NCBI GenBank assembly: GCA_017642935.1 | Contig: JAEPOK010000001.1 | Span: 682,001-746,000 of the forward strand | DNA from: Hyphomicrobiales bacterium | GTDB lineage: Bacteria > Pseudomonadota > Alphaproteobacteria > Rhizobiales > MH13 | DNA: 64,000 nucleotides | Direction of reading: 5' to 3' | In this document: positions 32,878 to 57,411 of the stretch, piece after piece | Layout: every line of letters starts with the position of its first letter | Position numbering within the stretch: the stretch's first letter is position 1 | Translations under genes and position numbers: made by a program | The notes under the pieces: model-generated | Told to the model about the DNA's origin: nothing | What the model saw: the letters and a program-made list of their open reading frames with translations, nothing else | Database searches by the model: none

Positions 32878-32953
32878 AGGGGTATAGCTCAGTTGGTAGA
32901 GCGACGGTCTCCAAAACCGTAGGTCGCGGGTTCGAACCCTGCTGCCCCTGCCA
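32878..32953 (+). tRNA. tRNA-Trp(CCA), attachment site of the island
   Basis: A complete 76-nt tRNA with acceptor stem AGGGGTA/TGCCCCT, anticodon CCA in ACGGTCTCCAAAACCGT, T-arm GGGTTCGAACCC and encoded CCA. Its last 50 bases are duplicated at 57362-57411. Confidence 0.97.
32904..32953 (+). repeat. Left attachment repeat (attL)
   Basis: These 50 bases, from the anticodon stem to the CCA end of tRNA-Trp, are identical to 57362-57411. Outside these limits the two copies diverge at once. Downstream of attL, TTACACAA (33027-33034) and TTGCACA (33037-33043) resemble arm-type integrase sites seen near the right end. Confidence 0.9.
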
Positions 32954-33067: not shown

Positions 33068-34294
33068 ATGGACAAGCACACCATTCTCGATGGCAAAGTG
33101 CATTTGTATCGGCGCAACACCGGCCCGACCTGGCAGTGTTCGGCCTATTTGGGCGGCAAAAATCAACGTGTGAGTACGAAAGAAACCAGCCTCGCGCGCG
33201 CCAAGGATTTCGCGGAGGACTGGTTTTTCACACTACGCGATATGCAGCGGCGTGGTGAGAATCTCGGGGAACCAACCTTCAAGCTAGCGGCGGATCGCTT
33301 TCAGGCAGAATACGAAGCCCTGACCGACGGTGATCGCAATGCACGCTGGGTCAATGACCACTATCGGCGGCTCCGGCTCCACCTGGTTCCCTTTTTTGGC
33401 AGCTACGGCCTATCGAAGGTTACGTCAGGTTTGATCCAGGAATACCGGCTTAAGCGGCTAAAGCCGCCAGTCGAAGGTGCTGAGGCGAACGAAGATGGCG
33501 AAGATGCCAAACCTTGGAAGCCGCCCTCTCGCAGCACGCTCCATCATGAAATGGTGACGCTGCGCCTGGTGCTGAAGACCGCGATCCGGCATGGATGGCT
33601 CACACATCTACCCGATATGTCGACCCCCTACCGGTCTGCCGGAAAGGTGGTTCATCGTGGCTGGTTCTCACCCGAGGAATACAAACGCCTCTACGAGTCC
33701 ACGCGCGCCAACATCCAACAGATGAAGAACGCCAAGCACCGCTATCTGGCCGAACAGCTACACGACAAAGTGCTGTTCATGGCCAACACCGGCCTCCGCC
33801 CCGACGAGATCAATGTGCTGGAATACCGTGATGTCGAGATCGTCGAAGACGAAGACAGCGGCGAGACCATCCTGGTCATCCAGGTGCGCGGCAAGCGCGG
33901 CGTCGGCTATTGCAAATCAACCGCCGGTGCCGTGTTTCCCTTCCAGCGACTGGTGAAGCGCAACCAACCGCAACCGACCGATCGCGTGTTTCCCCATGAT
34001 CACAAGAAGGCTTTCAACCGCATCTTGCATGACCTCGAGTTGAAGACCGATCGCCAAGGCAATCAACGGACCTTCTACTCACTGCGGCACAGCTACATTT
34101 CCTTTCGACTATTAGAAGGCGCAGACATCTACCAGATCGCCAAAAACTGCCGCACCAGCGTGGAGATGATTGAGCAGCATTATGCGGTCCATTTGAAAAA
34201 CGCGATCGATGCGCGAGCGGTGAACCGGCGGCAAAGCAAGTCAGGCAAAGGCAATGAAGCGCGCTGGTTGGAGCTAAATACGCATCTAACTTGA
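33068..34294 (+). CDS. Tyrosine integrase of the island
   Basis: The 408-residue protein is a site-specific tyrosine recombinase. The N-terminal arm and core-binding parts cover about residues 1-190. The catalytic domain shows Arg244 (NTGLRPDEI), the second arginine Arg340 (TFYSLRHSYIS) and the nucleophile Tyr372 (IEQHYAVHL). It is transcribed away from tRNA-Trp, whose 3' half is duplicated at the other end, so it is the enzyme expected to have integrated the element. No excisionase was recognised nearby. Confidence 0.93.
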   Translation: MDKHTILDGKVHLYRRNTGPTWQCSAYLGGKNQRVSTKETSLARAKDFAEDWFFTLRDMQRRGENLGEPTFKLAADRFQAEYEALTDGDRNARWVNDHYRRLRLHLVPFFGSYGLSKVTSGLIQEYRLKRLKPPVEGAEANEDGEDAKPWKPPSRSTLHHEMVTLRLVLKTAIRHGWLTHLPDMSTPYRSAGKVVHRGWFSPEEYKRLYESTRANIQQMKNAKHRYLAEQLHDKVLFMANTGLRPDEINVLEYRDVEIVEDEDSGETILVIQVRGKRGVGYCKSTAGAVFPFQRLVKRNQPQPTDRVFPHDHKKAFNRILHDLELKTDRQGNQRTFYSLRHSYISFRLLEGADIYQIAKNCRTSVEMIEQHYAVHLKNAIDARAVNRRQSKSGKGNEARWLELNTHLT

Positions 34295-35004: not shown

Positions 35005-36009
35005 TCAGCTTGGCTTGTGAGGCGGCTCGTTAAACCGGCGATAGACCCAGGTCTTGAGCCGAGCCGCTACGCCGCCTAAGTCGACGTCGCTGCTAGCAAC
35101 CCCTGTTTCCGGCAAACGATTGATAAACATGCGCCGTTCAATGGCTTCAATACGCTGTTTGGTGGTGGGGTGAGAGGCAAAAAAACTGCTGGCATCCGCG
35201 TTGAGCATAAAATGTCGGAAGTCAGCGGCAGCTTTGCTGTTGGTTTTGAGCGCGGACGTTTTGCGTAGCGCGCCAGCCATCGCTTCAGGACTGACCAAAC
35301 GAGCTCCAATCGCATCGGCCCAATATTCCCGACGGCGCGACATCCGCATCAACTCCAGTTCAGACAATGGGGTGAACACCCAACGGGCAAATTGTTTGAG
35401 ACCGCGCCAGCGCAAAAACCAGGTCAGCGCGTCTTGCACAGCGACAGCGTAGGTCATGCGCGCCATGTCATGGTTCGCGATGTGCGCCAACTCATGCGCC
35501 ATGACGGCTTGCATTTCGTCTTTCGTTAGCTTGTTGATTGCACCACTGGAAAACGCCACCAATGCCTCGTCTTGTTTGAGCCCCATGGCAAAGGCATTGA
35601 TGCTGTCGTCCGGAAACCACCCCACCCACTTGATACGCGGAAGGTCGAGTTGCCGCGCGAAGTGATTGAGGTGCTGATGGATCGGATGGGTATCAGCAAA
35701 CAGGGTCACACCTAACGGATGACTGCCATTGTTCGCTGCCGCCCAGGCTTGTCTGCCTGCGAAGGTTTGACCGCCAAGGATCGCCCATACTGGTGTTGCG
35801 ACCAATGCGAATAGGTTGCCGAAAGACGCAGTGGCCAAGGCCAGCGGCACTGTGGTGATCAAGGCCAGTGGCCCCATCACCATGGCACTGCTCATTAGGG
35901 CGGTGGTGGTGGCCGTCGCCCCCCATAACGCGCCCAAAGTCGCCAACCCAGCCATGAGCAGCACCGTCAGCGGCAAATAGTTCCTAAAGCCCTTTGGGTT
36001 GATGGCCAT
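35005..36009 (-). CDS. M48 family (HtpX-like) membrane metalloprotease
   Basis: The 334-residue protein has two hydrophobic N-terminal segments (about residues 10-35 and 42-75) and the zinc site HELAH at 172-176, with the third ligand glutamate in RRREYWADAIGARL. This is the HtpX/Ste24 architecture, a membrane-embedded protease for misfolded membrane proteins. The ATG at 36009 overlaps the upstream TraG-type gene by 26 bases, so both are probably translated from one message. An HtpX-like gene attached to a mobilisation module is unusual. Confidence 0.9.
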   Translation of the reverse strand: MAINPKGFRNYLPLTVLLMAGLATLGALWGATATTTALMSSAMVMGPLALITTVPLALATASFGNLFALVATPVWAILGGQTFAGRQAWAAANNGSHPLGVTLFADTHPIHQHLNHFARQLDLPRIKWVGWFPDDSINAFAMGLKQDEALVAFSSGAINKLTKDEMQAVMAHELAHIANHDMARMTYAVAVQDALTWFLRWRGLKQFARWVFTPLSELELMRMSRRREYWADAIGARLVSPEAMAGALRKTSALKTNSKAAADFRHFMLNADASSFFASHPTTKQRIEAIERRMFINRLPETGVASSDVDLGGVAARLKTWVYRRFNEPPHKPS

Positions 36010-37723
36010 GGGTTGCGCCCTTTCCGGTTTGTTGTCGCGCGACGGCCACCGGGTCGGTGAACCAGGGATGAAGCTTGGCTTGCACCGGTGGAACACCGCG
36101 TAAGAAGTGGATCGCTTGGCGCGGCTGGGCCAAGTCGGTGGCAGCCAGTTGGTTGATGACCTCTTCCGGCTTCAAGAGCCGTCTCCCAGTGAGCTGCACC
36201 GTGTCACCAATGCTGTAGGAGGCGGCTCCACCGCTGACCGCTGGGCTGACGCTTGGTTGGTCATAGGCGACTGTCGTATCGCCCAGATAGTCAGAGATCA
36301 GCTTGGCGGTATGCGGATCGTCGGTGCCGAAGAACGTCTTCACCTCAGCTTGGAGGAACGACTTCCAGGTGGTGGGGTACTTTTGCTCTAAGGTCGGGAG
36401 GTCTTGTAGGAAGAACCACAACCGGGCTCCAGCACTGGCATGGGTGCGCAGCGCACTGACAAACCGATCATCGGCATCTAGCCCCAAGAACTCGTCGAGC
36501 ACGAACAATACCGGCGTATCCGGCTGACGTGGATTCGTCAGCATCGCATCCAGCGCGCAGGCAAACACCATGCGGACGAAGGTGCCGTAGGTGCTCAGCT
36601 CGTCGAACGGCAGCACCAAATAAACGGTGGTGGGCTCGTCCTTCAGCTGTTGGAAAGTAAAATCGGAGCGTGCCGTGGCGGCTCGCAAACCCGGGGTATC
36701 CCACATCCGTAAATGCTGACTAAGACTATCGATCAGACGCGGTTGGCCGACATCGCTGGTTTTGGTCAGGACGTTTTGTGCACCATTGCGCACGGCGGGC
36801 GGCAGGCGCGGATCAGTCATGGCGTGCAATAGGCGATAGAAGTCCTCATTGAGCGTAGAAACCGTATCCCGGATGGTGCCGAAGGTGCGGTACTCGGTTG
36901 GCGCAAAGCAGGCGGTGAACTCCAACACCGCCGACAAGAACCCAATCGCTTCGTTGTCAAAAAACCGCTGCCGATCGTCATCAGTACGCGGGTAGATCAT
37001 CTCCGCCAGCTTCAAGGCAGACGGGGCGTCGGTGACCTGATCAAGCGGATTGAAGGCAGCGGTCTTGCCCCCGAAAGCAGGCAGGCCGAACGGATTGAGG
37101 ATATGCACTGGCCCAATGTGCGCCTCCCGCCAAGCAGCTGTGGCAGCCGCCAACTCGCCCTTTGGATCAAGCACCACCGCACTACCTTGATAACGCAGCA
37201 GATTGGGGATGATCTGCATCGTGCCCTTACCGGTGCGGGTTGGCGCAACGGTCAACAAGTGGCTTTCACCCTGCCAATAAACCGACGAGCTATCATGCGT
37301 TGTGCCCAGCCACAGTCCCGGGCCAACATCCGGTATGTCCGGTTCAAGCAAGTTGGCATGGGCTAGGTGTTCACTGGTGGCCCAGTGTGCCCCGCCATGA
37401 ATCGGTGTTGGGTTGCGGCGCAGTTCGTCATTGCGAGCCCGTGTCGCCGCCGCTTGTTCCGCCGCCATGAGTATCCCGTCATACTCACGACCGTCTTTGA
37501 TGGCCGCAACAACCGCCGCAATAGTGATGGGGTCATAACCGCGTTGCCGCAGCTTCTTTTTAACAGACGAGGCGGTAATCGACCGTCCAAACGTCATGCC
37601 CATGCGAATAGTGTCGGTGATGTCGCGCGTACTGAGATCACTCATCATCCCAGAGCGACTATCCAACTCAATAATCGGTGGCAGACGCATCTTGGTTAGG
37701 TCTTTCCACGGATCGTCGCTCAT
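35984..37723 (-). CDS. traG: TraG/VirD4-type coupling ATPase
   Basis: Coupling proteins bring the relaxase-DNA complex to a type IV secretion channel. The 579-residue protein has Walker A PTRTGKGT at 161-168 and Walker B PVLFVLDE at 404-411, with the T4CP blocks NLLRYQGSAVVLDPKGELAA and GARLWFFLQDLPTLEQKYP. Unlike VirD4, the first 150 residues show no transmembrane segment, so it may be soluble or anchored by the overlapping M48 partner. It is divergent from the relaxase gene across the candidate oriT. Confidence 0.92.
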   Translation of the reverse strand: MSDDPWKDLTKMRLPPIIELDSRSGMMSDLSTRDITDTIRMGMTFGRSITASSVKKKLRQRGYDPITIAAVVAAIKDGREYDGILMAAEQAAATRARNDELRRNPTPIHGGAHWATSEHLAHANLLEPDIPDVGPGLWLGTTHDSSSVYWQGESHLLTVAPTRTGKGTMQIIPNLLRYQGSAVVLDPKGELAAATAAWREAHIGPVHILNPFGLPAFGGKTAAFNPLDQVTDAPSALKLAEMIYPRTDDDRQRFFDNEAIGFLSAVLEFTACFAPTEYRTFGTIRDTVSTLNEDFYRLLHAMTDPRLPPAVRNGAQNVLTKTSDVGQPRLIDSLSQHLRMWDTPGLRAATARSDFTFQQLKDEPTTVYLVLPFDELSTYGTFVRMVFACALDAMLTNPRQPDTPVLFVLDEFLGLDADDRFVSALRTHASAGARLWFFLQDLPTLEQKYPTTWKSFLQAEVKTFFGTDDPHTAKLISDYLGDTTVAYDQPSVSPAVSGGAASYSIGDTVQLTGRRLLKPEEVINQLAATDLAQPRQAIHFLRGVPPVQAKLHPWFTDPVAVARQQTGKGATHGHQPKGL

Positions 37724-37820
37724 ATACGCACCACTGTATTGTCTCCACCAATACTATCGGCAGACAACAACGTGATCGTGCAATTGGGACATGTCCTTAT
37801 CTCGTAACAGCGCACTTACA

Positions 37821-37934
37821 TGTTGCCAGACCTGTATTACAGGTTGGCAACATTGCCGTGGCCGGACGGGCGTGCGCGGCACGCGGTCCGGCCACGGAAC
37901 TGCGCTTGGGGCCGTTGTTCGGCCTGGCCCCAAG
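37821..37934. other. Candidate origin of transfer (three hairpins)
   Basis: Between the divergent coupling ATPase and relaxase genes lie three hairpins in a row. The first is a near-perfect 15-bp repeat (37821-37852, arms TGTTGCCA and TGGCAACA outermost). The second has perfect 12-bp arms (CCGTGGCCGGAC and GTCCGGCCACGG, 37856-37897). The third has 9-bp arms (CTTGGGGCC and GGCCCCAAG, 37905-37934). The position next to a relaxase and the hairpin richness are those of oriT sites, but the nick site cannot be fixed. Confidence 0.65.
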
Positions 37935-37975
37935 ACCCCTCAGGCCACCAAGCCGCTGGCGTGGTCATAAATCTC

Positions 37976-39127
37976 ATGCAGGACGGAAATCTCCACTGCC
38001 ATGTGAAGAACATTACGCGGCGCGGCAAAGACGGACGCCTACGCTCAGTCGTAGCTAAGGCCGCCTACAACAGTGGTGAAGCGTTGCCGATTGAACGGGA
38101 AGACCGCACCACCACGCTGCCAACCCGGCACGACGTGGTGTACACGGCGGTGATTACGCCGAAGGGCGCACCGGCGTGGGCACGCGAACGTGCCCAGCTG
38201 TGGAATGCCGTTGAAGCCAATGTGAAACGCAAGGATGGCCGTCTGGCCAAAGAAGTGGTGGTGGCCATCACCCGAGGAATTCCGCCTGAACAATGGCCAG
38301 AGCTGGCCGCCGATTATGTCCAGCCTTGGTTGGATGAGGGTCAGATTGCGGATGTAGCGATCCATGAAGATGGCTCGCTGCACAATCCGCACTTGCATGT
38401 CCTCCTTACCGTTCACGCCCTGCAGCCGAACGGCTTTGGGCGTAAACTGCCAACCGTGAATCAAAAAGCGTTCGTCAAGACCGCGCGGACGCACTGGGCT
38501 GACCTCACGAATGCGTATCTCAAGGCCAACGGGCTGAGCGTCCGCGTGGACGCGCGGAGCTACAAAGCCCGTGGGATTGCGGCGCAGCCCACCCAGCATC
38601 GCGGGCCAAACCCTGCCGAACGCAGGGCCCGACGTGCCCGGTTGCAAAACCAATCTCAACCCACGCAAGGAGCCACCACGATGGCCCGTAAGTCACCAGA
38701 CCCAACCGTAACGACCGATCGCCGTTGGTTTGAGCAGGCCGTGGATGGGCTTGCCGCAGCCGACGAGCGGCAGCCTGCAAAACCTGACCAGCAAGTTGAA
38801 CAATCTGGCCCCGCAGCTGAACTGCAAGCGTTGACCGCCGATGCACCCGATGCGGTACGAGAGGCTCTAGCCGCTGAGATTGCCTACCAACAGCAATTGG
38901 CAGCAGTTGCTGATGAACGCACTCAGCGGCTGGACTTACTGCATGAACGATTGGAGCCTGATCAGCGTGCAGCCTTGGAGCGGTACTTGGGCGAACAGCG
39001 GCAGAACTATCAGGATTACCCGCAGCCTGAACCCGGTCCCGATGGTGAACCGATGCTGCCCAGCAGCTTGGATCGCGCACGACGGCGGATGACCGATGAC
39101 TATGAGCGTGAAGAGCCTGAGCGGTAG
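37976..39127 (+). CDS. MobA/MobL-type relaxase
   Basis: The 383-residue protein resembles MobA/MobL relaxases: VKNITRRGKDGRLRSVVAKAAYNSGE near the start and the metal-binding histidine cluster HNPHLHVLLT. A candidate nicking tyrosine is the Tyr in VAKAAYNSGE. The C-terminal part is charged and helical. I chose the ATG at 37976 because the earlier extension reads through the candidate oriT hairpins. It would nick oriT and pilot the strand. Confidence 0.85.
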   Translation: MQDGNLHCHVKNITRRGKDGRLRSVVAKAAYNSGEALPIEREDRTTTLPTRHDVVYTAVITPKGAPAWARERAQLWNAVEANVKRKDGRLAKEVVVAITRGIPPEQWPELAADYVQPWLDEGQIADVAIHEDGSLHNPHLHVLLTVHALQPNGFGRKLPTVNQKAFVKTARTHWADLTNAYLKANGLSVRVDARSYKARGIAAQPTQHRGPNPAERRARRARLQNQSQPTQGATTMARKSPDPTVTTDRRWFEQAVDGLAAADERQPAKPDQQVEQSGPAAELQALTADAPDAVREALAAEIAYQQQLAAVADERTQRLDLLHERLEPDQRAALERYLGEQRQNYQDYPQPEPGPDGEPMLPSSLDRARRRMTDDYEREEPER

Positions 39128-41737: not shown

Positions 41738-42595
41738 CTATTCGCCGAGATAAACGCGAGTGATGCTCAGCCGTGCATGGCCGAGCTCCGCCGAGATCAG
41801 CCGACGCGCGGCGATTGCTTGCGCCTGCTCAGCCGGTGATAGGTCAACATGCCGCTTGCCGCCCGCCAGTGAGCAAGGCTGCCCCACCAGTTCGAGATAA
41901 CGGGTTTGGGCATAGCGGTGGCGCAGGCCATGCACATTCTTGATCTCGTGCTTGGCCAGCTGTGTTTCAAACACCTTGCGCCAGCCGATGTAGGACTTGT
42001 CCGCCGGAATGAGCGAGCCGTTGCCCACAAGTATGGAAACCTGATCTAGCAACGTGCGCTGTGCCGCTGTGCGGATCGGAATAAAGCGACCGCGCCCGCC
42101 CTTGGTCCAAGACGGTTTGAGGGCCAGGACCGTGCCTTTATCGGCGACACGCACGCGCAGCTTCAAAGCTTCCTCGAACCGCAGACCGAACAACTCCATC
42201 AAGTTGAGTGAAGCCTGCATCCGAGGGTTGCGCAGTGTTGTTGTTTTGACGGTGGTTTGAGCTCGGTTTGTTCGAGCACCTTCACGTAAAGGTAGCCCCA
42301 ATTCGGCATTGGTCCTTGGCATGACCGATGCCTTGTTGACCTTGGCGGCCCACCAGCGCAGCCAACCTAGGCGGTTCTTGATGGTACCGTTGCTCAGGCC
42401 GTTGGTCTGCCAAGTGCTGACGAGTTTTTGAATATGTTTGGGCTTGAGGGAGTTGGCCCTGGGCAGTTTGAACCCCAGCCCATGGAGTTCATTGGCAATC
42501 GCAACCAAGCCGCGCCGCCGATTGGCTTGGGTGGCCAATGCCCCGTCGCGATTGTGCTTGGTCAAGCGCACCAGAGCCAGTGCTAGGTTGTTCAT
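41738..42595 (-). CDS. Integrase-domain tyrosine recombinase
   Basis: The 285-residue protein has the N-terminal SAM-like core-binding domain (KHIQKLVSTWQTNGLSNGTIKNRLGWLRWW) and a catalytic domain with Arg in FGLRFEEALKL, HGLRHRYAQTRY, and the nucleophile Tyr in SITRVYLGE. It fits the Integrase_1-type family found on mobile elements. It is one of four tyrosine recombinases in this island. I prefer the ATG at 42595 (MNNLALALV), though a GTG five codons earlier is possible. Confidence 0.87.
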   Translation of the reverse strand: MNNLALALVRLTKHNRDGALATQANRRRGLVAIANELHGLGFKLPRANSLKPKHIQKLVSTWQTNGLSNGTIKNRLGWLRWWAAKVNKASVMPRTNAELGLPLREGARTNRAQTTVKTTTLRNPRMQASLNLMELFGLRFEEALKLRVRVADKGTVLALKPSWTKGGRGRFIPIRTAAQRTLLDQVSILVGNGSLIPADKSYIGWRKVFETQLAKHEIKNVHGLRHRYAQTRYLELVGQPCSLAGGKRHVDLSPAEQAQAIAARRLISAELGHARLSITRVYLGE

Positions 42596-42739
42596 GGCTC
42601 TGGCTTTCACGTTGTTATTTGATTGTTGCTAAGTGTTATTGGTCACCGCCAGGCCTTAGCTCTGGTCGGTTCGCCGCAAGCGGCGATATTGACCGCATTG
42701 GTGCATCGGTGACGGTCGTCATCGATGACCAGCGCGCAC

Positions 42740-43120: not shown

Positions 43121-43152
43121 GGTAGTGACGGGGCCGGTGCCCCGTCACTACC
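43121..43152. repeat. Perfect 14-bp hairpin
   Basis: GGTAGTGACGGGGC and GCCCCGTCACTACC are separated by CGGT. It lies 76 bp past the end of the XerD-like recombinase gene. There is no T-run on either side, so it is a structured end or protein-binding site rather than a classic terminator. Confidence 0.75.
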
Positions 43153-43227: not shown

Positions 43228-43830
43228 TCACAGCCGCGTCCACATCCGTTCGGCCATCAGCCGTTCCTCCGGCCCAATCGCGTCCAGATAGATGGCGGTG
43301 GTCGACAGGGCGGCATGGCCTAGCCAGCGTTGCACCAGTGTCAGCGGTACACCTGACCGGATCGCATGAACGCCAAACCCATGACGCAGCCCACGCGGAC
43401 ACGCTTGAATGCCAGATATCTCCGCCGCTGCCATCACCTGCTTGACGTGTCGCCATGCATGACCCCGATGCCACGGCCACAGATAGGGGCATTCTGACGA
43501 TGGCTGCCGCTGGTCCAGCTTGTGCGATGCCACCAACAAATCAATCAGCATGGTTGGAATCGGCACCTCCCGGATCACCAGCCGCTCGCGCTTCTTGAGT
43601 GACCGGATGGCCACGACGCCCTCGCGCGATTGGATGGCAGCTGGTGACAGGTTCAGGGCTTCGGTGATGCGGCAACCGGTAAAGAGCAACGTCTCGCAGA
43701 GGGTGCGCACGGGTGGGCTCGCTTGGCGGGCCGCGACCAGAAAACGCTGCCGTTCATCCGCGTTGAGATACTTGCGGGCCGCGTTCGGCGCATACAGGGC
43801 CTGATACGCGGGAAATACGTGCTGCGTCAT
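43228..43830 (-). CDS. XerD-like tyrosine recombinase
   Basis: The 200-residue protein contains only the catalytic domain of a tyrosine recombinase: Arg in FTGCRITEALNL, RGLRHGFGVHA, the histidine in WLGHAALSTT, and the nucleophile Tyr in TTAIYLDA. It lacks the N-terminal core-binding domain, as in short plasmid-resolution or switch recombinases. Its start lies 55 bp from a 22-bp inverted repeat that looks like its target. Recombinases of this shape can invert DNA. Confidence 0.87.
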   Translation of the reverse strand: MTQHVFPAYQALYAPNAARKYLNADERQRFLVAARQASPPVRTLCETLLFTGCRITEALNLSPAAIQSREGVVAIRSLKKRERLVIREVPIPTMLIDLLVASHKLDQRQPSSECPYLWPWHRGHAWRHVKQVMAAAEISGIQACPRGLRHGFGVHAIRSGVPLTLVQRWLGHAALSTTAIYLDAIGPEERLMAERMWTRL

Positions 43831-43885
43831 GCGCGAAGCTTTCTGTTTTGTTGCTCTTTTTTGCCTCCCTTTGCGGGCTAAGTAC

Positions 43886-44040
43886 GCGACAGAATTGGGA
43901 AAACTGTCGCGTCTGGAAAAAAGCCTAGGCCACCAACGGCCATCGGCTGGTCAAGTCTCATGCTAGGCCAATCTGGGTGGCCTAATCAAGCAAAAATCAA
44001 ATTGGAATCAATGATGTAACAGTTTTCCCAATTCTGTCGC
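43886..44040. repeat. 22-bp perfect inverted repeats flanking a 111-bp segment
   Basis: The 22 bases at 43886-43907 (beginning GCGACAGAATTGGG) are the exact reverse complement of 44019-44040 (ending CCCAATTCTGTCGC). The left copy extends to an 8-bp self-palindrome CGCGACAG/CTGTCGCG at its ends. Inside lie a second inverted pair TAGGCCACC (43926-43934) and GGTGGCCTA (43976-43984). A recombinase gene starts 55 bp to the left and a small membrane-protein gene 33 bp to the right, so an invertible promoter switch is possible. Confidence 0.85.
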
Positions 44041-44073
44041 AGCTTCTTCATCGCGCGTCAGAAGGACATCCCA

Positions 44074-44415
44074 ATGTCTGAGAATTCACAGAACCACGAC
44101 CGGGATTCGCGGATCACACCGCCGCCATTGCCGCCGCACAACCGACCATCATCAGACAATGCACTGCCACCATGGCAGCCGTTACTCATTTTGGGAGCTG
44201 CGCTGGCAGCCGGACTGTTCGTCTTCGTTCAGGAAACCCGCGTGTTTGGGGAGAGCTGCTACCACATCGGCGACATTACGATGCAGACCACCTGTCTCGA
44301 TCGGGAGGTTTACATGGGAGCTTGGGTCGTTGCGGTAGGGTTGGTTGGACTGGGTGCTATTGGGGCGATCAAGGAAAGTACACGAGGATCAACGCGATTG
44401 CCGCCCGATCGGTGA
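44074..44415 (+). CDS. Small PPPLPP membrane protein 1
   Basis: This 113-residue product has a hydrophilic N-terminus with ITPPPLPPHNRP, then two hydrophobic segments (about residues 36-54 and 83-100) separated by a short loop with two cysteines (SCYHIGDITMQTTCLD) that could form a disulphide. It would be an inner membrane protein with both termini on the same side. The same TPPPLPP motif in the same position recurs in the next gene. I do not recognise it. It lies directly right of the inverted-repeat segment. Confidence 0.68.
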   Translation: MSENSQNHDRDSRITPPPLPPHNRPSSDNALPPWQPLLILGAALAAGLFVFVQETRVFGESCYHIGDITMQTTCLDREVYMGAWVVAVGLVGLGAIGAIKESTRGSTRLPPDR

Positions 44416-44595
44416 CGGTAGAGCGTGCACCCCATGTCAGCAGGCCGGTTCAAGACGACCGCGTGCGAAGTAACCGATTGCGATAGCGGCCCAACCGCCG
44501 AGGCCTTTTGGCCACAGAAAACGGTAAAGGGAGCCACCCATTCAATGTGAATGACGGCGTGCCCCGGCCTCATCTAAGAACCAAGAGCCAAATCG

Positions 44596-44823
44596 ATGTC
44601 CAACGACCCTCTCAAACGTGACGATTCAAGCAACACTCCGCCACCATTGCCGCCTCAGGAGTTCCGCGCCAACCAGCCAAAGCGATCAGCAAATCTGCCG
44701 ATGATTCTCTTGGTTGTGATCGGCGTGGCGTTAGCGTTTTTCATTCAGCAATCTGGCGCAATTGATCAGGCATTTGATGATCTGATGGCACAGATTTTTG
44801 GTCGAAACCTATTGCCGTACTGA
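44596..44823 (+). CDS. Small PPPLPP membrane protein 2
   Basis: This 75-residue product has an N-terminus KRDDSSNTPPPLPPQEF similar to the one in the preceding gene, followed by one hydrophobic segment (about residues 34-51). A short amphipathic tail completes it. The shared TPPPLPP motif suggests the two have a common ancestry or a common partner with a proline-binding domain. The function is unknown. The 180 bp between the two genes contains no other frame. Confidence 0.65.
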   Translation: MSNDPLKRDDSSNTPPPLPPQEFRANQPKRSANLPMILLVVIGVALAFFIQQSGAIDQAFDDLMAQIFGRNLLPY

Positions 44824-45166
44824 AGACCGAAGCAATTTACTTGCCCGCCGCCTGGTGAGACCAGTCAGTTGCAACCGGCAGGCTGCAAAAAAGAAAAGCG
44901 GCAATGCAGTCGCCGGCGTCACCTACCACCTAACGATGCCGGAGGCTCGTGGGTACGGGGAGTATGAGATGATTGCAATTGGAACCGCTAGAAAAACCTA
45001 AGTTGCCAGCGGCCCAACCACCCCTTCTTTATCGACCTCCAATCCCAATTGCGCTCGGCCAACTGCGTAGGAGGGTTTGCCTGGAGTTGTGCATCGGCGA
45101 TGGATTTTCACTATCTGTTGCAGTAACTTTGCCATTCGCCGAAGCACATGAGGGAGTGGCACAAAA
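44824..45166. other. Gene-free stretch between small membrane and exported genes
   Basis: No convincing gene, RNA or repeat is seen in these 343 bp. A plus-strand frame at 44973-45206 overlaps the following gene in another frame and lacks family-like features. Confidence 0.4.
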
Positions 45167-45439
45167 ATGGTTCAGAAATCGGCAATCGCACTGTTATTCG
45201 CACTGATGTTTTATCCAGCCAATTCCGGTGCCCAAACGCGCTTTGTACCCGATGTTTCACCGTACTCTCTGATCAATGATGGTTATGAGCTTGTTTCCAC
45301 GAGCCTTCACGAGAGCATGGTGTCAGATTCAAGTTACGTTTTACTATTTTTCGTCAAACAAGGCAGAGGGCCAGATTCGATTATCGCATGTCGTCACATG
45401 ATCGCTCGTAATGATATCAGCTGTTTTGAATATGAGTAG
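45167..45439 (+). CDS. Small hypothetical secreted protein
   Basis: This 90-residue protein has a signal peptide (MVQKSAIALLFALMFYPANSGA-QTR), followed by a compact domain ending in HMIARNDISCFEYE with two cysteines that may pair. The ribosome site GAGGGAG precedes the ATG at 45167. It would be periplasmic or secreted and is unrecognised. Confidence 0.68.
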   Translation: MVQKSAIALLFALMFYPANSGAQTRFVPDVSPYSLINDGYELVSTSLHESMVSDSSYVLLFFVKQGRGPDSIIACRHMIARNDISCFEYE

Positions 45440-57361: not shown

Positions 57362-57411
57362 ACGGTCTCCAAAACCGTAGGTCGCGGGTTCGAACCCTGC
57401 TGCCCCTGCCA
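57362..57411 (+). repeat. Right attachment repeat (attR)
   Basis: The 50 bases from the anticodon stem to CCA are an exact copy of the 3' part of tRNA-Trp at 32904-32953. To its left, TTGCACAA occurs at 57287-57294 and 57299-57306, with TTGCACTAA at 57347-57355, resembling the arm-type motif near attL. Confidence 0.9.

Follow-up and report, generated by a model that had tools for sequence, protein, structure and literature searches.

Short promoter-bearing DNA segments that lie between inverted repeats and are turned over by tyrosine recombinases, usually encoded nearby, control surface proteins in the fim-type systems, namely fimS with FimB/FimE and, in uropathogenic E. coli, ipuS and hyxS (PMC6083910, PMC5386303). 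The length of fimS is 314 bp (PMC5763102), and ipuS comprises 260 bp with 7-bp repeats. In Clostridioides difficile, the RecV switches (cwpV and the flagellar switch) also rely on a tyrosine recombinase that inverts a short upstream segment and serve cell-surface functions (PMC5386303, PMC2784873). Here we describe a locus of a Hyphomicrobiales bacterium, contained in a stretch of 64,000 nucleotides (GenBank assembly GCA_017642935.1, contig JAEPOK010000001.1, positions 682,001 to 746,000; hereafter the window), in which a gene for a 200-amino-acid tyrosine recombinase adjoins a segment of about 130 bp bounded by two inverted sites. A self-contained promoter-inversion switch, operating by phase variation, is the best explanation of this arrangement and, judging from sequence comparison, a probable one.

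The preliminary description of this DNA, made from its letters alone, had likened the locus to fim-type switches, and the likeness holds for the mode of inversion but not for the curated FimB/FimE-type models. The recombinase matches the catalytic Phage_integrase domain alone (PF00589, residues 21-183), with 63.8 bits against a Pfam gathering score of 27.1, and retains the catalytic residues; its predicted structure (mean predicted local distance difference test score 88.9) resembles Xer recombinases and the catalytic domains of phage integrases. FimB and FimE are likewise of catalytic-domain size, with about 200 amino acids (NCBIfam models of 198-200 positions), but the protein studied here scores only 23.3 and 31.7 bits with NF007370 and NF007371, far below the cut-offs of 221 and 222. 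It is a recombinase that works like a fim recombinase, as far as comparison indicates, but is not classed as one. In contrast to fim-type switches, moreover, the segment is shorter, the sites are full 27-bp dyads and the promoter motif points back at the recombinase gene. In the RecV switches, control is exerted once transcription has started, and RecV acts on several loci, whereas here the recombinase gene adjoins the switch and the promoter motif is aimed at it.

The nearest relatives in sequence and fold are XerC/XerD-dif and the plasmid multimer-resolution recombinases, a likeness that extends to the 11-bp arms around a short centre and to single-site relatives lying beside parA/rep genes on plasmids. 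Unlike Xer, the recombinase is missing the N-terminal domain, has two inverted sites rather than one, carries K or R in place of the box II histidine, and stays below the cut-offs for XerC (57.8 bits; cut-off 335) and XerD (73.1 bits; cut-off 330), with its C-terminal part alone aligned. Hin, whose gene lies inside the invertible segment, is a serine recombinase, whereas the enzymes considered here are tyrosine recombinases; the Hin-type layout is approached by 13 relatives in which inverted sites flank the recombinase gene, but the window locus has its sites upstream. We did not find the module described in the literature, as judged from titles and the openings of abstracts, with subscription journals thinly covered.

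The site pair lies upstream of the minus-strand recombinase gene, between it and a divergent gene for a small membrane protein (Table 1). Its most conspicuous part is an exact 22-bp inverted repeat with arms separated by 111 bp, the longest exact inverted repeat in the window among those with arms at most 400 bp apart; no further copies of the pair occur elsewhere in the genome. The two repeats are parts of 27-bp near-palindromic sites, each built of an 11-bp arm, a 5-bp core and an 11-bp arm. In the left site the outer arms are CGCGACAG/CTGTCGCG (43885-43892 / 43904-43911), and the right copy is likewise a near-palindrome (TGTAACAG/CTGTCGCA). The cores, TGGGA and TCCCA, are reverse-complementary and lie 130 bp from each other, measured between centres; two inverted sites with an identical crossover core, which define the functional class, are therefore present, and the pattern is kept in relatives. 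The preliminary description had reported the exact repeats, the palindromic outer arms of the left one, an inner inverted pair, a catalytic-only tyrosine recombinase and a small membrane protein gene alongside, and all of these are borne out.

Relatives were collected from a plasmid collection, genome contigs and searches across the order, class and phylum, giving a survey of 77 loci (L numbers), the window among them. Inspection revealed near-palindromes with arms of about 11 bp and a 5-bp centre upstream of homologous recombinase genes, and a weight matrix trained on relatives, from the arms only and with the core omitted, was then used to scan for sites. An inverted pair lies upstream of the recombinase gene in 43 loci and flanks it in 13; 14 loci have one site, six have none and one has another arrangement. 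Site layout tracks the recombinase tree (9 changes versus 30.6 in shuffles), many of whose inner branches are weak. When the two best sites within 400 bp upstream were taken at each locus, the cores, unseen by the matrix, were reverse-complementary in 40 of 41 two-site loci, whereas re-pairing of partners gave 2.1 such loci on average and 8 at most; downstream regions and shuffled upstream regions yielded no two-site matches. Core sequences vary between loci and are matched within each. The spacing of sites is mostly 129-136 bp, with a periodicity near the helical turn whose p-value is optimistic given that the loci are related, and this periodicity fits a constrained synapse. In the recombinases, R54, K79, R149, H172 and Y181 are invariant across the survey, and the box II histidine position holds K in 65 loci and R in the other 12, including the window.

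Comparison between related species points to inversion of the segment itself. In a first genus, L058, L059 and L062 have flanks collinear with those of L061, in which the segment between the cores is inverted and matches that of L058 at 125 of 126 bases on the opposite strand. A BLAST comparison of 14-kb regions aligns the flanks at 94% and 92% identity on one strand and the switch at 97% over 158 bp on the other. In a second genus, L035 (Rhodobium orientis) and L090 have syntenic flanks and carry their segments in opposite orientations, at 90.5% identity across the full 126 bp. Other homologous pairs (L044/L103, L104/L119, L098/L104 and L054/L058) have the same orientation. These comparisons, which are between species, give no rate and do not cover the window's strain, show that precise inversion has occurred in relatives. 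As far as sequence comparison reaches, paired sites, matched cores, conserved spacing and precise inversion are thereby established in relatives, and the invertible, recombinase-controlled switch proposed for the window by the preliminary description is supported by the paired sites, the matched cores and the two between-species inversions.

A TTGnnn-N16-18-TAnnnn motif recurs in the segments of the family, its -35 element frequently lying at offset 36-38. Under a leave-one-out promoter model, seeded with hand-picked matches on the recombinase-facing strand, 24 of 42 segments reach p<=0.1, and the window segment scores p=0.02. In this regard, the flipping of a promoter by inversion of the segment, also part of the preliminary description, is likely, and it gains from the motif common to the family. 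IHF sites show a modest enrichment only (14 of 42 segments versus 5.7 in shuffles, maximum 13). An internal terminator within the segment was considered and rejected, as its single match is at chance level.

These findings allow us to propose a model in which the adjacent recombinase would bind the two dyad sites and carry out strand exchange inside the matched cores (5 bp, perhaps 5-7 bp), so that the segment between them inverts. The segment would hold a single promoter, which in the sequenced orientation aims at the recombinase gene; the membrane-protein genes from 44074 onward would therefore be off from that promoter. In the inverted state, the promoter would aim at the divergent genes (44074-45439) and the recombinase would be left without it. 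In this model, the identity of the cutting enzyme, the activity of the motif as a promoter, the choice of the divergent genes as output and the functioning of the switch in this strain are all inferred.

In most family loci, no more than about 200 bp separate the distal site from the start of the divergent gene. A crude hydrophobicity test found an N-terminal hydrophobic or transmembrane segment in 23 of 35 divergent open reading frames (ORFs) and in 30 of 108 background ORFs, both sets called mechanically and both counts therefore approximate. This enrichment speaks for the promoter switch, as do the tight spacing of sites, the conserved catalytic residues and the shared motif. The products include an outer-membrane beta-barrel protein (L040) as well as lipoprotein-like and small membrane proteins. 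A search of 248 other genomes of the order brought up no relative of the 113-amino-acid divergent protein of the window, which also lacks matches in Pfam, PADLOC and PHROGs. At five loci in one part of the recombinase tree (L044, L101, L103, L112 and L113), the divergent genes encode related small exported proteins, of which those tested match no Pfam family.

Several observations weigh against the promoter switch. The window locus is known in one orientation only, and a plain sigma-70 scan of the window found no promoter, so that the promoter predicted for the window depends on the motif of the family. In 23 of the 24 well-scored segments the motif faces the recombinase. This is surprising, since a state that expresses the recombinase should promote flipping away from itself; possible reasons are that the promoter is weak, that recombination is biased or that the opposite state is selected against in culture. 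A few divergent genes encode non-exported products (ELM1-like in L035 and L090, nucleotidyltransferase-like in L107). Finally, the training loci of the site matrix overlap the test loci, which makes site finding partly circular; the core match is not circular, because the core was absent from the matrix.

The orientation of the motif would agree with an alternative that we consider unlikely, in which the segment mainly controls the recombinase itself as a self-limiting timer, and the divergent genes, transcribed from a promoter of their own, are not its true output. Divergent genes that are mostly unrelated to one another, some of them non-exported, would also be in line with it, but in most loci the gene on the far side of the switch is divergent and begins near the distal site, and such genes are enriched for exported or membrane proteins. 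Rather improbable, in our view, is a switch that is genuine in the family as a whole and locked or dead in this particular genome: the single available orientation and the minority box II residue speak for it, whereas the ORF, the other catalytic residues, the sites and the cores are all intact. We give still less credit to the notion that the sites serve multimer resolution or another form of plasmid or island maintenance, inversion being a by-product with no regulatory role. Related recombinases with one site or none do adjoin parA and rep on plasmids, and the window locus itself is on a mobilizable island; resolution, however, needs no second inverted site with a matched core and fixed spacing, and loci with the paired layout mostly form their own section of the recombinase tree. 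A miniature transposable element with 22-bp terminal inverted repeats, an earlier alternative suggested by the repeats themselves, is hardly credible and was rejected, since the pair has a single genome copy, its flanks hold no target duplication (as already noted in the preliminary description), and the family segments are variable in sequence while keeping a fixed position upstream of one recombinase family.

Beyond the window, the promoter-switch reading can be extended to a widespread and so far undescribed group of very short promoter switches, with Alphaproteobacteria as its main representatives. A single invertible promoter would there serve either the recombinase or divergent envelope genes, turning the output on would cost the recombinase its promoter, and cores would diversify while remaining matched at each locus; we regard this generalization as evenly poised. 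If true, a small unit made up of a recombinase, two sites and a promoter, present in many genomes and on mobile elements, would be a sign of envelope-protein phase variation in environmental bacteria. Inversion surveys so far say little on Alphaproteobacteria, and none of four alphaproteobacterial datasets had an inversion signal in PMC5903667. In addition, matched but varying cores would offer a natural collection of recombinase-site pairs that may be orthogonal, and the recombinase-facing promoter raises the problem of how the switch keeps from becoming locked.

Table 1. Coordinates of the putative switch, its neighbours and the surrounding island within the window.
Feature	Position	Strand	Remarks
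Exact 22-bp inverted repeat	43886-43907 / 44019-44040		
Left recombination site (putative)	43885-43911	no strand	11-5-11 dyad, CGCGACAGAAT-TGGGA-AAACTGTCGCG; core 43896-43900
Right recombination site (putative)	44015-44041	no strand	Inverted relative to left, TGTAACAGTTT-TCCCA-ATTCTGTCGCA; core 44026-44030
Invertible segment between cores (inferred)	43901-44025	no strand	Homologous segment inverted in L061, L035/L090
Inner inverted pair	43926-43934 / 43976-43984	no strand	TAGGCCACC / GGTGGCCTA
Predicted promoter facing recombinase	43960-43989	-	TTGATT 43984-43989, 18-bp spacer, TAGCAT 43960-43965; family motif
Tyrosine recombinase, 200 amino acids, catalytic domain only	43228-43830	-	R54, K79, R146 (box II), R149, H172, Y181
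Divergent gene, 113-amino-acid small membrane protein	44074-44415	+	ORF, presumed output; no relative found
75-amino-acid small membrane protein	44596-44823	+	Similar N-terminus (TPPPLPP); probably same transcript, grouping inferred
90-amino-acid protein	45167-45439	+	Signal-peptide-like N-terminus; possibly same transcript, grouping inferred
Island	32904-57411		24.5 kb, bounded by 50-bp tRNA-Trp 3'-end repeat
Integrase-like gene	33068-34294		Adjoins tRNA; Pfam match just under cut-off
M48 peptidase	35005-36096		
Coupling protein	35984-37723		
MobA/MobL relaxase	37820-39127		
Second recombinase	41738-42610		Phage_int_SAM_2 + Integrase_1
Hairpin	43121-43152		Perfect 14-bp stem, 4-base loop

With regard to its setting, an exact 50-bp copy of the tRNA-Trp 3' end (32904-32953) recurs at 57362-57411, and this repeat, together with the integrase-like gene, the coupling protein and the relaxase, marks an integrative mobilizable element of which the putative switch is cargo. 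Phage and viral sequences offered little: a phage collection contained distant integrases only, and viral contigs searched for the repeat and for relatives of the recombinase yielded nothing. Matches on plasmids of Klebsiella and other enterobacteria, about 30% identical, were judged to lie outside the subfamily and were not used as a population test.

The gene-flanking layout, with inverted sites on either side of the recombinase gene, is seen in L129-L131, L134-L136, L074, L076 and L078; there the recombinase gene itself would invert, and in L134 and L136 it lies in opposite orientations relative to the one flank that both share directly, a further inversion that counts in favour of the switch. 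In L035, L042 and L090, genes a few kb away from the switch encode proteins whose N-terminal parts resemble, by eye, that of the second recombinase of the island, and this recombinase and the switch may travel together. The only other inverted repeat of at least 14 bp in the window with arms within 400 bp is the hairpin downstream of the recombinase gene, which is probably the terminator of that gene.
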